From positions 1-33,572 of the forward strand of contig JAQVLN010000011.1 of the NCBI GenBank assembly GCA_028704155.1: a stretch of 33,572 nucleotides of DNA, given 5' to 3'. The stretch is from Desulfitobacteriaceae bacterium (GTDB lineage Bacteria; Bacillota; Desulfitobacteriia; Desulfitobacteriales; Desulfitobacteriaceae). Below, one piece after another: positions 5,868 through 25,430 of this stretch. The translations under genes and the position numbers were made by a program. The notes under the pieces were generated by a model. It was not told where the DNA came from, did not search any database, and was given only the letters and a program-made list of their open reading frames with translations. How positions within the stretch are numbered: the stretch's first letter is position 1; each line of letters starts with the position of its first letter.

Positions 5868-6006
5868 AATAGCAAAAAAGCTGAGTCCAGTCATAGGTCC
5901 TGGAACGGGGGATATCCTAATGGGGTGAATCACGTTTACGGAAACGTGTAGGGTAATCACCTTTTGCCCGAATCCGTCAACTAACCTCGTAAGCTTGGAA
6001 AGGTGG
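5868..6006 (+). promoter_or_regulatory. Cyclic di-AMP riboswitch (ydaO-yuaA type)
   Basis: The leader has the conserved blocks of the ydaO class: TGGGGTGAATCACG, a short hairpin, AGGGTAATCACC, and the diagnostic CCGAATCCGTCAACTAACC followed by CTCGTAAGC. The motif is classically found ahead of cell-wall hydrolase genes, and an NlpC/P60 gene follows here. Bases 5958-5964 (CACCTTT) are complementary to the SD site at 5999-6005 (AAAGGTG), and no U-tract terminator separates aptamer and start codon, so control at translation initiation is plausible. The preceding 5672-5867 holds AT-rich sequence with no promoter I can assign with confidence. Confidence 0.92.
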
Positions 6007-6019
6007 AAAAAATTCATTT

Positions 6020-6712
6020 ATGTTTCAACACATACGAAGTAAAGGTATGTGGTTAGGTTTTGTGACTGTTTCGGGATTATTTCTATTTGGTATTATTCCG
6101 TGGGCAAACACACATTCAAACACCACAAATGATCAAATTTTATTCAAAGAGTTATCTGTAAAAGCCAATCAAATTCCAAGTGAACCTTATGCCCAAGTTA
6201 TCCAGGAACAATTCAAATTGACAACAGAAGTCGTGCTGCCGGTCGTAACAGCTGTCCATGATAACCAAAAGACAGTTAAAACTGCTACAACCCCAAAAAT
6301 TCCGGTTCAGACAGCTTTAACTTCAAATTCCAAGGTATCACGCGGCGGCAGTGATAAATCTTCACTGATCAATAATGCCTTAAGCCTGAGGGGGATTCCC
6401 TATGTTTGGGGAGGTACTACCCGCAAGGGTTTTGATTGCTCAGGATTTACACAGTATGTTTTTGGCGGTTCCAAAATATCTTTGCCGAGAACCGCTGCTG
6501 AACAATATAAAGTTGGAACACCTGTCAGCAGGAACCAATTACAACAAGGAGACTTGGTATTCTTTACCACATATGCTCCCGGGGCTTCCCATGTAGGTAT
6601 TTATACTAGCGGTGGAAATTTCATACATGCATCTACTAAAGGAGTAAAAATCTCCAGTTTAAATGAAAGTTATTATGCTACTCATTATATAGGTGCCCGC
6701 CGGGTGAAATAA
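6020..6712 (+). CDS. Secreted NlpC/P60 peptidoglycan endopeptidase
   Basis: A 230-residue protein with an N-terminal hydrophobic segment (about residues 10-28, signal peptide or anchor), a Thr/Lys-rich linker to about residue 110, and a C-terminal NlpC/P60 domain. The catalytic Cys140 lies in GFDCSGFTQYVF, His191 in ASHVGIY and His203 in FIHAS. The family cleaves D-Glu-meso-DAP-type bonds in stem peptides outside the membrane. There are no LysM or SH3 repeats, so wall targeting is not evident. The start is ATG 6020; its SD (AAAGGTGG, 5999-6006) is about 13 nt away, which is long. Control by the c-di-AMP riboswitch upstream fits the known coupling of c-di-AMP to wall and osmotic homeostasis. 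Confidence 0.9.
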   Translation: MFQHIRSKGMWLGFVTVSGLFLFGIIPWANTHSNTTNDQILFKELSVKANQIPSEPYAQVIQEQFKLTTEVVLPVVTAVHDNQKTVKTATTPKIPVQTALTSNSKVSRGGSDKSSLINNALSLRGIPYVWGGTTRKGFDCSGFTQYVFGGSKISLPRTAAEQYKVGTPVSRNQLQQGDLVFFTTYAPGASHVGIYTSGGNFIHASTKGVKISSLNESYYATHYIGARRVK

Positions 6713-21825: not shown

Positions 21826-22608
21826 CTATTCTTTGGATTCCGGGGGCAGGTTACTTTCGGGTGGCCATGTTTCTGAAGACTGCTTTAGTAACTCGCCGAT
21901 CGGTATCAGTGAATAACCTTTAGCTTTCAGTTTTTGAATGACAGCAGGCAAAGCTTGAACTGTATCAGGTGCTGAATCAGAGGCATGGAAAAGAATAATG
22001 TCTCCGGGCTTTGCTCCATTGCCCGGTTTAAGACCGTTTAACACGTTATTAATTACTGCATCAGGACCCGGTCGTTTCCAATCAAGGGAATCAACACTCC
22101 ATTGAATAACTTTATAGCCGAGCCGGTTGGCCGTATCAATTAACTTGTTATCGTAGGCTCCGTTGGGTGCACGGATAAGGTTTATTTTTTGATGTGAGAT
22201 TGCTTCCAAAACCACTTCAGCTGTTTTTATTTCTCGTTCAATTTCATTTGCACTTAATGTATTTAAATCAATATGACGGTTTCCGTGAGAACCAATTTCA
22301 TGACCATCTGCAACCATTCGTTGAACTATTTGTTCGTGTTTACCGGCCCAGGGACTGGATAAGAAAAATGTTGCCCTAATTCCCTCCTCCTTTAAAATAT
22401 CAAGAATCGGAACAGCAGTATTTTCTCCCCAACTGATATCAAAAGTTAACCCAATGGCTTGAGATGAAACATTGGCGGAATAAATTGGTTTAAGCTTGTT
22501 GGAAAATACCGAAATTGCGTTCTCTCTGTAAGCTAAAAGTACAAAAATAAGGATTCCCCATAAAATGAGGCTTCTCCCGGAAGGTTTTTTTAAAACGACT
22601 ATTCGCAT
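21826..22608 (-). CDS. pdaB: PdaB-like polysaccharide deacetylase (sporulation)
   Basis: A 260-residue CE4-fold protein with an N-terminal membrane anchor (about residues 12-28). Motifs are LTFDISWGE (catalytic Asp57), the zinc pair His108/His112 in GSHGNRH, RAPNG, DSLDWK and ILFHAS. The usual TFDDGP is replaced by TFDISW, so the second, metal-binding Asp is absent; this substitution is a feature of the PdaB subgroup as I recall it. B. subtilis pdaB is needed to maintain spores after late sporulation. It acts on the outer face of the membrane. ATG 22608 follows AAGGAGG with 9-nt spacing. Catalytic activity of the subgroup is uncertain. Confidence 0.85.
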   Translation of the reverse strand: MRIVVLKKPSGRSLILWGILIFVLLAYRENAISVFSNKLKPIYSANVSSQAIGLTFDISWGENTAVPILDILKEEGIRATFFLSSPWAGKHEQIVQRMVADGHEIGSHGNRHIDLNTLSANEIEREIKTAEVVLEAISHQKINLIRAPNGAYDNKLIDTANRLGYKVIQWSVDSLDWKRPGPDAVINNVLNGLKPGNGAKPGDIILFHASDSAPDTVQALPAVIQKLKAKGYSLIPIGELLKQSSETWPPESNLPPESKE

Positions 22609-22760
22609 TCTTGATACCTCCTTCGCCTAAACATTATGCATCTTGTAAGAAAATAATGTAATTCCAGCCTTGAGTTAATTAAGAATAAATTAATAATCTT
22701 GTTAAGAAATTAACTTGCAAGATACGCCTGATTGTGTTAAATATAACCTATATCTATTTA

Positions 22761-22883
22761 AGCAGAGCAAAGGCACTTCAAAGCTTAATTTCGAAGGGCC
22801 TAACATAACCTCAATGGTTGATGCAGAACTTCTGCTGATAAATAGCTCAAACCTGATAATTTGGGTTTTGGAGCTATTTTTTT
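22761..22883 (+). promoter_or_regulatory. Structured leader with intrinsic terminator upstream of the TPR gene
   Basis: AGCAGA (22761-22766) can pair with TCTGCT (22831-22836), enclosing a CTTC/GAAG hairpin and an ACC/GGT hairpin. GCAGAA (22823-22828) competes for the same TTCTGC strand. A terminator follows: AATAGCTC (22841-22848) with GAGCTATT (22871-22878), an inner AAACC/GGTTT stem, and seven T residues. The TPR start codon is 54 bp downstream. The layout is that of a transcription attenuator or riboswitch; it fits no class I know. The promoter upstream is not clear (TTGCAA at 22715 is a -35 candidate). Confidence 0.5.
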
Positions 22884-22936
22884 CTGTACCCAAAAACCAT
22901 TGCCTGCATATTATAAGGTTACCGGAGGAGATAACT

Positions 22937-24220
22937 ATGAACGACCAGATTGTAGAGAGATGGCGTGGTTTAATGGAAGAAGGTACCAGGAATCTTAGTA
23001 ATGATAATTATGAAGAGGCTGAAAATTGCTTTACCCGATGTGTTCCTTTAGCACTAGAGTTAATTGTGCCTGAGATATTGGCTTTTACATTACGGCTTTT
23101 AGCGACTGCCAGGCTTCGTTTAGGAAAATTGAGTACTGCAGAAATAGAATTTAAGCAGGCTGCCAGGATTTGTATAGAGATACAGAATCCTAAAGGTATG
23201 GCTGAGGCTTGGGCTGGTTTAGCGAATGTGGCAGTAATACGCGGATCTTTAGTAGAAGCAGTGCAATGGTATGAACGTTCAATTGCTATATATCCCGTTT
23301 CTTCGCCGCGTTTACGTTTAGGGATGCTTTATTCAGACCTGGGACAAGTTTATGCTTCACAAAATAAGCTTGAAAAAGCTGAACAAGTTTTAATTGTTGC
23401 CAAAAAATTATGTCAGGAGAATAATTATCCCAGAGGAGAAGGTGAACTTAACGTTTTACTAGGTGAAATTTCTTTTAGACGGGAGAAGCGAAATTTGGCA
23501 AAGCAATATCTTAGAAATGCCTGCCGGATTTTCACAGTTATTTCTGATAATCAGAATTTGGCTAGTGCCCTGCAGTATTTAGCCTTTTTGCATTATGACA
23601 GTGGAGATTTTAGGGATGCGGTAGAATGCCAGCAAAGATCTGCGATATCGCGGCTGAAATCAGGAGAGAATGAAGAAGGCAGTGATGGCTTGTTTTTTTT
23701 AAGTAAAATAGAACAGGGTTTGGGTGACTATTATGCTGCCAAGGAACATTTGGCCTTATCAATGGAGATCTATGGAAAAAGGGACTTAGGTCTTGCTTTA
23801 CGCTACCAGGCTCTGGCCTGGATATTTATCCAGGAAATGAATTGGCAAAAAGCAGAGAAGAAATTCAGGGAAGCTTTTGAACTATTCCTGGAAATAAAGG
23901 ATACTATAAGAGCAAATGAGGCACAAGAAATATTAGAATATTTAGCAATGGCGCAGAAAATGAATTTAAATAATCAAGCTGCCCGGATTCAGGATTTCGC
24001 TCAATTATTCGAAGACGGTAATCTTACATTAGAAGCTGTTCAAAAGTTAGGTAAACTTTGTGAAAACCGTCATAATTATATTACTGCTTTACAATGTTAT
24101 TGGCAGGCTTTATATATTGCACGCAAGGATAATATTGAAGTTTTGAATATAGAAAAATCAATTCAACGGATATCACGAAAAGTAAGGAAAAAAAACACAG
24201 TTAAAAAAAATAAAATATAA
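22937..24220 (+). CDS. TPR-repeat protein, cytoplasmic
   Basis: A 427-residue all-helical protein. At least six tetratricopeptide-like units run from residue ~17 to ~350, for example YEEAENCFTRCVPLALELI, LSTAEIEFKQAARICIEIQ, LVEAVQWYERSIAIYPVSS, LEKAEQVLIVAKKLC, FRDAVECQQRSAI and WQKAEKKFREAFELFLEI. The C-terminus is basic (ISRKVRKKNTVKKNKI). Such arrays are protein- or peptide-binding scaffolds, often in Rap-like or transcriptional regulators; there is no helix-turn-helix or enzyme domain. The frame is open 222 nt further upstream, but ATG 22937 is 5 nt after GGAGGAG, and the upstream part contains the leader terminator. The partner and role are unknown. Confidence 0.8.
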   Translation: MNDQIVERWRGLMEEGTRNLSNDNYEEAENCFTRCVPLALELIVPEILAFTLRLLATARLRLGKLSTAEIEFKQAARICIEIQNPKGMAEAWAGLANVAVIRGSLVEAVQWYERSIAIYPVSSPRLRLGMLYSDLGQVYASQNKLEKAEQVLIVAKKLCQENNYPRGEGELNVLLGEISFRREKRNLAKQYLRNACRIFTVISDNQNLASALQYLAFLHYDSGDFRDAVECQQRSAISRLKSGENEEGSDGLFFLSKIEQGLGDYYAAKEHLALSMEIYGKRDLGLALRYQALAWIFIQEMNWQKAEKKFREAFELFLEIKDTIRANEAQEILEYLAMAQKMNLNNQAARIQDFAQLFEDGNLTLEAVQKLGKLCENRHNYITALQCYWQALYIARKDNIEVLNIEKSIQRISRKVRKKNTVKKNKI

Positions 24221-24290: not shown

Positions 24291-24821
24291 GTGGTGAAGT
24301 CTGAAGTGGCCAGAGAGGACAAAGAACCGCTGGAATGTTTGGAAGAAGTGTACCGTGTTTTAGAAAAGACTCTGCTACATATACAAAAAAACAGGTCGAT
24401 TCATGTGAAAAAACTTGAAACCTGGGCTGAAGACCTTCGCAGCCAAAGACGTGTTTTTGAAGATATTACTTTACCTGCCCGTTTGATCGTTGAATATTTA
24501 ATTGAACTGCAATATAAAACAGGTCAAGCAGCTTTAGAAACGGAGCATTTGAGACTTTCTTCAAGTAACGTCTGTACTGTAAAGGTAGAAGAATTCGGAA
24601 TAATTAAGGTTGTTCTGGGTAATTTAGAAGTTTCTTGGCGTGATTGTGATTACTATTATTACTTTTATCCTGATAAAGCAGAACTTAGGGCTATTGATGA
24701 AAGATTCTCAATTAGATTATTTTTTTCTTCAGATTTTAGTAAACATGTTTCTGCAAGATTAACGGAATTATCTGAAATGCCTAATGTTAAATATATCCAT
24801 CCGCAAATTGAACAATGGTAA
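24291..24821 (+). CDS. Unknown 176-residue soluble protein
   Basis: No family is recognised. The N-terminal half is helical and charged (LECLEEVYRVLEKTLLHIQK, LETWAEDLRSQRRVFED), possibly a short coiled coil. The C-terminal half is strand-rich (TVKVEEFGIIKVVLGN, EVSWRDCDYYYYFYP, FSIRLFFSSDFSKHV). A run of four Tyr in DCDYYYYFYP is unusual. The start codon is uncertain: GTG 24291 and GTG 24294 are both possible and the SD is weak. It stands 15 bp before cobO, so it is probably co-transcribed with it, without an obvious functional link to corrinoid metabolism. Confidence 0.6.
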   Translation: MVKSEVAREDKEPLECLEEVYRVLEKTLLHIQKNRSIHVKKLETWAEDLRSQRRVFEDITLPARLIVEYLIELQYKTGQAALETEHLRLSSSNVCTVKVEEFGIIKVVLGNLEVSWRDCDYYYYFYPDKAELRAIDERFSIRLFFSSDFSKHVSARLTELSEMPNVKYIHPQIEQW

Positions 24822-24836
24822 AGGGAGGTATTTGTT

Positions 24837-25370
24837 GTGGCAAGGTTGGAACAGGGTTTAATACAGGTTTATACAGGGGACAGTAAAGGAAAAACAACTG
24901 CAGCCTTGGGTTTGGCTATTAGGGCAGTTGGACATGGTTTTAAAGTATTTATAATCCAGTTTATGAAAGGCCAAGGTTATTATGGTGAACTTCAGGGGCT
25001 GAAACGGCTGGAACCCGAATGCCAGCTTGAGCACTATGGAGGCAAGGGGTGGGTATATTTAGGTAATCCCAGTCAGGAGGATTTACAGGAAGCCGAAAAG
25101 GCTATGTTAAGGGCGAAGGAGATTATTAGCAGCGGAAAATGGGACATTGTTATTCTGGATGAAATTTTCAATGCAATATGGTTTGAACTTGTTACTGAGG
25201 ATCAAGTACTTGAATTACTGGAATTAAAACCACCCCATGTTGAAATAGTATTGACCGGCCGGAACGCCTCGGACAGAATTAAAGCTAAAGCAGATTTGGT
25301 AACAGAAATGGTCCAGATCAAACACCCTTATGAACAGGGGATTGCCGGTCGTAAAGGAATAGAGTTTTAA
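24837..25370 (+). CDS. cobO: Cob(I)alamin adenosyltransferase, CobO/BtuR type
   Basis: A 177-residue P-loop enzyme. The ATP site is TGDSKGKTTAALG (Lys19, with Ser16 and Thr20/21), followed by VFIIQFMKG, a WDIVILDEIFNAI Walker-B-like strand and TGRNA. It transfers the adenosyl group of ATP to cob(I)alamin, producing coenzyme B12 in biosynthesis or salvage. Length is typical for the short CobO form. GTG 24837 lies 8 nt after AAAGGGAGG. No other cobalamin genes are in the window, so salvage or an unlinked pathway is likely. It is followed by a strong palindromic terminator. Confidence 0.93.
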   Translation: MARLEQGLIQVYTGDSKGKTTAALGLAIRAVGHGFKVFIIQFMKGQGYYGELQGLKRLEPECQLEHYGGKGWVYLGNPSQEDLQEAEKAMLRAKEIISSGKWDIVILDEIFNAIWFELVTEDQVLELLELKPPHVEIVLTGRNASDRIKAKADLVTEMVQIKHPYEQGIAGRKGIEF

Positions 25371-25397: not shown

Positions 25398-25430
25398 AGA
25401 ACATCAGATCTGATGTTCTTTTTATTTTTA
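25398..25430 (+). terminator. Intrinsic terminator after cobO
   Basis: Bases 25398-25419 form a perfect 22-bp palindrome (AGAACATCA arms around GATC) followed by TTTTATTTTT. It cleanly separates cobO from the prkA operon. Confidence 0.9.

Follow-up and report, generated by a model that had tools for sequence, protein, structure and literature searches.

A putative short RNA ending at an intrinsic terminator in front of a TPR protein gene of a Desulfitobacteriaceae bacterium

Introduction

The window, as the whole 33,572-nucleotide stretch of DNA analysed here is called, stems from a Desulfitobacteriaceae bacterium and carries a TPR protein gene, which is preceded by a foldable region and a terminator. 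The original prediction described this region as a switch-like leader RNA, in which two mutually exclusive pairings share one TTCTGC strand ahead of the terminator. This raises the question of whether the region controls the TPR gene as its leader or is an RNA in its own right. The reading that we favour, and whose chances of being correct we regard as even, is that of a short, separately terminated and lineage-specific RNA, which lies 5' of the TPR gene's own promoter and is not the leader of TPR.

The TPR gene and its probable promoter

The following features describe the gene, its probable unit and the promoter box:

22886 to 22915, + strand: promoter box, sigma-K-like, in front of TPR (GTACC at 22886-22890, spacer of 15, GCATATTATA at 22906-22915)
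22937 to 24220, + strand: gene of the TPR protein, 427 amino acids (from the ORF and protein comparison)
24291 to 25370, + strand: probable rest of the unit, consisting of an ORF (24291-24821) and a corrinoid adenosyltransferase gene (24837-25370)
25398 to 25419, + strand: terminator-like hairpin 3' of the unit (from a scan)

The TPR protein was matched in 50 of the 61 genomes searched, the window's own included, and the loci of the best 30 matches, again with that of the window, were taken for the upstream comparison. A scan of genome contigs with the TPR protein found nothing. The genome G001, which belongs to the same genus and is 92% complete, has no TPR match and only deacetylase paralogues of about 30% identity; the ORF located 3' of TPR in the window is preceded there by a different gene, and the nearest relative therefore gives no alignment. 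The ATG at 22937 lies 54 bp behind the end of the terminator's T-run at 22883, exactly as originally described. The reading frame of TPR extends back without a stop to TTG 22715; an N-terminal extension of TPR or a leader peptide was nevertheless rejected, because in the other loci both the ribosome site and the start lie close to where the window has its ATG. Since the gene upstream of the TPR gene is divergent, a transcript should start locally.

Within the last 90 bases examined, which include 12 bases of the match, the window and 28 of the 29 other loci have a GCATA box at a like place, preceded in each of them by a C-rich -35-like element. In the remaining locus, L029 of genome G007, the box is located further upstream, before an insertion; about 190 nt are inserted between promoter box and ribosome site at this locus, and no Rfam family matched it at the gathering cut-off. 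The sigma-K consensus of B. subtilis, as given in the available part of the source, consists of a -35 element KCACM and a -10 element GCATANNNTA (PMC3416734), and the accessible portion of a study on C. difficile assigns -35 motifs with ATA to sigma-E and those with AC to sigma-K (PMC3789822). Measured against the B. subtilis motif as excerpted, GCATATTATA of the window fits the sigma-K -10 element at every defined base and GTACC agrees with four of the five -35 positions, which, together with the spacer of 15, gives a candidate promoter of the sigma-K type (PMC3416734). Where the box is present outside the window (28 loci), the -10 element always ends in G and not A, and the -35 elements of these loci mostly depart from the sigma-K AC motif in the form in which the excerpt presents it (PMC3789822), which leaves the sigma factor uncertain.

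The -35-like element begins three bases past the end of the terminator T-run. As the promoter box is thus located 3' of the terminator, a transcript starting there would lack the RNA. Transcription starting 3' of 22883 had been named from the outset as an argument against a leader, and the presence of a conserved sigma-K-like box at this very place leans against a switch leader. Judged from the sequence, TPR can probably do without this leader, at least during sporulation.

The terminator and the fold before it

The region 5' of the promoter box contains the following elements:

22708 to 22754, + strand: weak candidate for the region in which the RNA starts (TTGCAA at 22715-22720, TGTG at 22733-22736, TAAATA at 22738-22743; proposed by eye)
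22754 to 22760, + strand: 5' strand of the P1 extension, CUAUUUA, candidate antiterminator (predicted to pair with 22839-22845)
22761 to 22767, + strand: 5' strand of P1, AGCAGAG (pairs with 22830-22836 in the RNA ending at 22884)
22771 to 22801, + strand: hairpin P2 (tested pairs at least 0.92 in seven transcripts)
22804 to 22823, + strand: hairpin P3 (in the minimum free energy fold of the P1 state; slightly different in the other state)
22823 to 22835, + strand: alternative 5-bp hairpin of the original prediction (assessed by pairing probability at different RNA ends)
22830 to 22845, + strand: 3' strand of P1 and its extension (22840-22845 doubles as the base of the terminator 5' arm)
22840 to 22883, + strand: intrinsic terminator, hairpin 22840-22879 and T-run 22877-22883 (from fold energy, shuffles and the comparison of 30 TPR loci)

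The terminator, which had been placed at 22841-22883, is present as a stable hairpin with a U-run directly after it, as is typical of intrinsic (rho-independent) terminators. Segment 22840-22886 folds with -16.5 kcal/mol, a value reached by one of 200 shuffled sequences (z -4.46). When the 330 nt upstream of TPR were compared across the 30 loci, after removal of the N letters from L016, the window's terminator was the sole strong one, with -16.9 kcal/mol vs. -6.6 kcal/mol for the next best. The longer segment 22756-22884, which includes the terminator, reaches -38.5 kcal/mol (z -3.92), and none of 200 shuffles was as stable; for segment 22756-22842, which lacks it, z is -2.26. Only the terminator is strongly non-random, and most of the fold significance of the region comes from it. 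Simple pattern scans for terminators do not list the hairpin at 22840-22883, probably because its stem has a bulge.

A convincing promoter for the RNA was not found, and the consensus promoter scans do not list 22708-22754. Imperfect direct and inverted repeats, ATCTTGTAAG, ATCTTGTTAAG and CTTGCAAGAT, are located at 22640-22724 of the window in the divergent promoter region and are possibly an operator. A 24-amino-acid ORF with a GTG start (22734-22808) was considered as a leader peptide and rejected, as a ribosome site is absent by eye.

According to the reading of a separate RNA, a short transcript would be made now or would have been made formerly, starting somewhere in the AT-rich divergent region at about 22700-22754 and with its end at the intrinsic terminator (22883). 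TPR itself would be transcribed separately from the putative sigma-K-like mother-cell promoter at 22886-22915, with a start near 22922, and the terminator might keep upstream transcription out of this sporulation promoter. The RNA of about 130 nt would then be a lineage-specific small RNA or a by-product. Four points speak against this proposal: without a convincing promoter, the RNA may be untranscribed; the departures of the other loci in the -10 and -35 elements make the sigma factor uncertain; in one gene, a sporulation promoter can coexist with an attenuated vegetative one, so that a regulated leader is compatible with the downstream box; and an extended form of P1, which is described below, would compete with the terminator.

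Search for relatives of the RNA

Two covariance models, R1 and R2, which were built from one sequence and could thus miss distant relatives, gave no credible homologue in 120 relatives or in 73, 82 and 398 genomes of the order, class and phylum, respectively. These four sets overlap and include the window's own genome; stricter filters applied above 40 genomes, and in the phylum search at most ten candidates per genome were scored among the matches listed. Four weak R1 matches (E 0.03 to 0.6) were rejected by eye: two appear to be located within coding sequence, and the others fall in a simple hairpin or in AT-rich DNA. The best weak match, in genome G035, came up again in the order search (R2, E 0.2) and in the class search and is not credible. 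Just past this R1 match, on the minus strand of L036, TTAGGATGTTAGTAGG forms short tandem copies after an apparent coding end. Using blastn against 61 genomes, the window's own included, two other weak matches of 25-30 bases were obtained (L003 of G001 and L004 of G050), and the one in G001 was discarded as a relative because it lies, by eye, inside coding sequence. Two tight exact pattern scans of viral contigs gave no match, nor did the scans of plasmids and phages. The upstream stretches of the 29 other TPR loci were also read by eye, and an RNA of this kind is present in none of them. Covariation in orthologous leaders had been set in advance as a test of the leader; with the RNA absent upstream of the orthologues taken, there is no covariation to find.

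The upstream region of the window differs from that of its relatives in a further respect. A block TTCGAC-N5-TGTCTA is found in 29 of 29 other upstream stretches and is absent from both strands of the window. In genome G009, it is located (L303 3937-3954) beside a gene for a small divergent membrane protein (L303 3645-3920). Such a gene precedes TPR in divergent orientation in G009 and, as read by eye, in further relatives; it is missing from the window, and a search of the window's genome, run without a positive control, gave no match to the membrane-protein gene of G009. These differences, together with the failure to find a relative of the RNA, favour an alternative to the separate RNA, namely a plain terminator and a chance fold left after a rearrangement, with P1 to P3 having no function. 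It is also consistent with the part 5' of the terminator being only marginally stabler than shuffles (7 of 200 at least as stable; 12 of 200 without P1). However, the predicted probabilities of P2 and of the terminator are high, and the strength of the latter points to some transcription entering it. We consider a mere chance fold unlikely, though still to be reckoned with.

Alternative pairings and the terminator

Whether the region could act as a switch depends on the pairings that compete within it. The repeats AGCAGA (22761-22766), GCAGAA (22823-22828) and TTCTGC (22830-22835) are located where they had been reported, with TTCTGC as the shared strand. GCAGAA and TTCTGC are one base apart and their full pairing would leave a one-base loop; owing to this gap, only GCAGA and TCTGC can pair, forming 5 bp around the loop ACT. 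In RNAs with a 3' end at 22884, the predicted probability is 0.93-0.99 for P1 and 0.01-0.07 for the 22823 hairpin (starts 22735, 22748 and 22756), and forcing the hairpin in 22748-22884 costs 2.3 kcal/mol. At 3' ends 22890 or 22936, the hairpin rises to 0.90-0.98. In RNA reaching 22890 or beyond, the 22761 strand pairs with bases 3' of the terminator, also in the minimum free energy fold of 22735-22890. In the predicted fold of the readthrough RNA, bases 22880-22890 occupy the P1 5' strand at 22762-22767, which frees TTCTGC for the small hairpin. At the earlier ends 22852 and 22862, the probability of the hairpin depends on the start: 0.28-0.41 for 22735, 0.06-0.08 for 22748 and 0.85-0.90 for 22756.

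The predicted terminator fold is indifferent to this exchange. The terminator pair tested has a probability of 1.00 in nine of nine transcripts reaching 22884 or further, and four terminator pairs remain at least 0.90 whichever of the two pairings is forced. As the terminator forms with either pairing, the two pairings do not gate termination in these folds. Strand-sharing of this kind (6 bp plus 5 bp) is found in 5-18% of shuffles, depending on the region: 113 of 2000 for 22735-22840, 103 of 2000 for 22756-22842 and 363 of 2000 for 22735-22890; it is also found in 41 of 632 tiles of the window's plus strand. The exchange between P1 and the 22823 hairpin is a fair prediction of the folding model, and the originally proposed pairings are indeed exclusive and favoured in RNAs of different length; neither of them prevents the terminator, and the pair is, as modelled, no terminator switch.

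A better switch candidate, which the original prediction missed, could be an extension of P1. CUAUUUA at 22754-22760 is predicted to pair with UAAAUAG at 22839-22845, which lengthens P1 by 7 bp outward, and the last six bases of the latter strand (22840-22845) are the base of the terminator 5' arm. This suggests a rival to the separate RNA: an attenuator, perhaps an orphan riboswitch, with a three-way junction of P1, P2 and P3, whose P1 extends 7 bp into the terminator 5' arm. If a ligand or protein held P1 in its extended form, the terminator would become weaker, TPR, the ORF and cobO would be switched on, and the readthrough RNA would refold into the 22823 hairpin; the predicted change of state in RNA past the terminator is in line with this. 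Step-by-step folding of an RNA starting at 22748 also agrees with such a mechanism, since the extended P1 has a probability of 0.55 at 3' end 22844, of 0.84-0.98 at the sampled ends 22846-22874 and of 0.18 at 22876, with the handover to the terminator between 22874 and 22878; at full length, the two states are 4.9 kcal/mol apart. However, the probability of the extension varies with the start of the RNA and, for 3' ends 22852 and 22862, is 0.58-0.70 with start 22735 and only 0.04-0.06 with start 22756. Furthermore, the inner terminator stem is predicted to be still able to form beside the extended P1.

A 14-pair helix was reached in 17 of 1000 shuffles, and arm pairing and ensemble energy were jointly at the observed values in 4 of 1000 (start 22748) or 9 of 1000 (start 22735). 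Singly, they are less unusual, as arm pairing alone was reached in 14 (22748) or 80 (22735) and energy alone in 36 (22748) or 44 (22735) of 1000 shuffles. Of 2092 overlapping tiles taken from both strands, 213 contain a helix of at least 14 pairs. The same level was reached by 14 of 123 other low-GC terminator-like hairpins, and by 56 of 349 without the GC limit; these controls were picked mechanically from the window and other loci, including 80 loci (L160-L239) serving as background DNA; many are perhaps not true terminators, and many stem from unrelated bacteria. This measure was maximised over registers and upstream lengths, at all sites alike. By a simpler one, which uses one fixed arm register, the site scores 0.65 and ranks third of ten in the window. 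The extended P1 thus appears moderately unusual when compared to shuffles and not unusual when compared to real terminator-like hairpins.

The attenuator is further weakened by the lack of a homologue, and hence of covariation, by the TPR gene's own conserved box downstream and by the failure to find a good promoter for a leader. Taken together, we consider it rather improbable. What stands of the switch-like leader is a folded RNA with an intrinsic terminator; the pairings named for it do not gate this terminator, and a switch could operate via the extended P1. In its most elaborate form, the attenuator would be an orphan riboswitch seen in one genome so far, in which the extended P1 antiterminates the unit of TPR, ORF and corrinoid adenosyltransferase directly 5' of a sigma-K-like promoter, thereby combining a ligand-gated vegetative start with a sporulation start; this version is highly doubtful.

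Known RNA classes

None of the 4227 Rfam families reached its gathering score at this site, in agreement with the statement that the RNA could not be placed in a known riboswitch class. At E up to 10, two matches were obtained, with 18.3 and 15.5 bits vs. cut-offs of 43 and 47. The motifs GCAAAG and GGCCTAA bear what we take to be a faint likeness to the c-di-GMP-I class, and c-di-GMP was the ligand whose exclusion had been proposed. This check was run at the level of the covariance model: c-di-GMP-I (RF01051) gave no match at E up to 10 with permissive filters in 22600-22960. As a positive control, a c-di-GMP-I riboswitch was detected elsewhere in the same genome with 46.5 bits. A clear c-di-AMP riboswitch (87.7 bits) is present in the window at 5869-6010 on the + strand, just 5' of an ORF starting at 6020. 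The detection of these two riboswitches indicates that the scans were working. Despite the faint motifs, membership of a known riboswitch class, with c-di-GMP-I as the first candidate, is thus very improbable, as neither this model nor any other family matched while true riboswitches in the genome and the window were found.

Comparison with known systems

If the region gives rise only to a terminated RNA, as the reading of a separate RNA holds, it would be an ordinary lineage-specific intergenic feature, and the comparison of loci points to TPR as a conserved sporulation gene that carries a promoter of its own. Should the extended P1 gate readthrough, an orphan switch would precede a gene of the sporulation type, and a ligand search would be worthwhile.

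With c-di-GMP-I riboswitches (RF01051), the region presumably has no more in common than short scattered motifs, and the model is unmatched. In the adenine riboswitch of the pbuE type, P1 competes with the terminator. The predicted fold resembles this type in its three-way junction and in the strand that its closing P1 has in common with the terminator 5' arm; it differs in that no homologues, conserved junction or known ligand have been found for it, and the gene 3' of it carries a promoter box of its own. Firmicutes also have intergenic small RNAs that are terminated intrinsically. Although a conserved copy of the candidate RNA was not found, it resembles these small RNAs in being about 130 nt long and foldable and in ending at a strong terminator. 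As to the promoter behind the terminator, the 28 other loci differ from sigma-K mother-cell promoters, as far as the available part of the source describes them, in a -10 element ending with G and a -35 element mostly off the consensus (PMC3416734). The window itself resembles the mother-cell promoters described there in its -10 element of the type GCATANNNTA, its KCACM-like -35 element and the short spacing between the two (PMC3416734).
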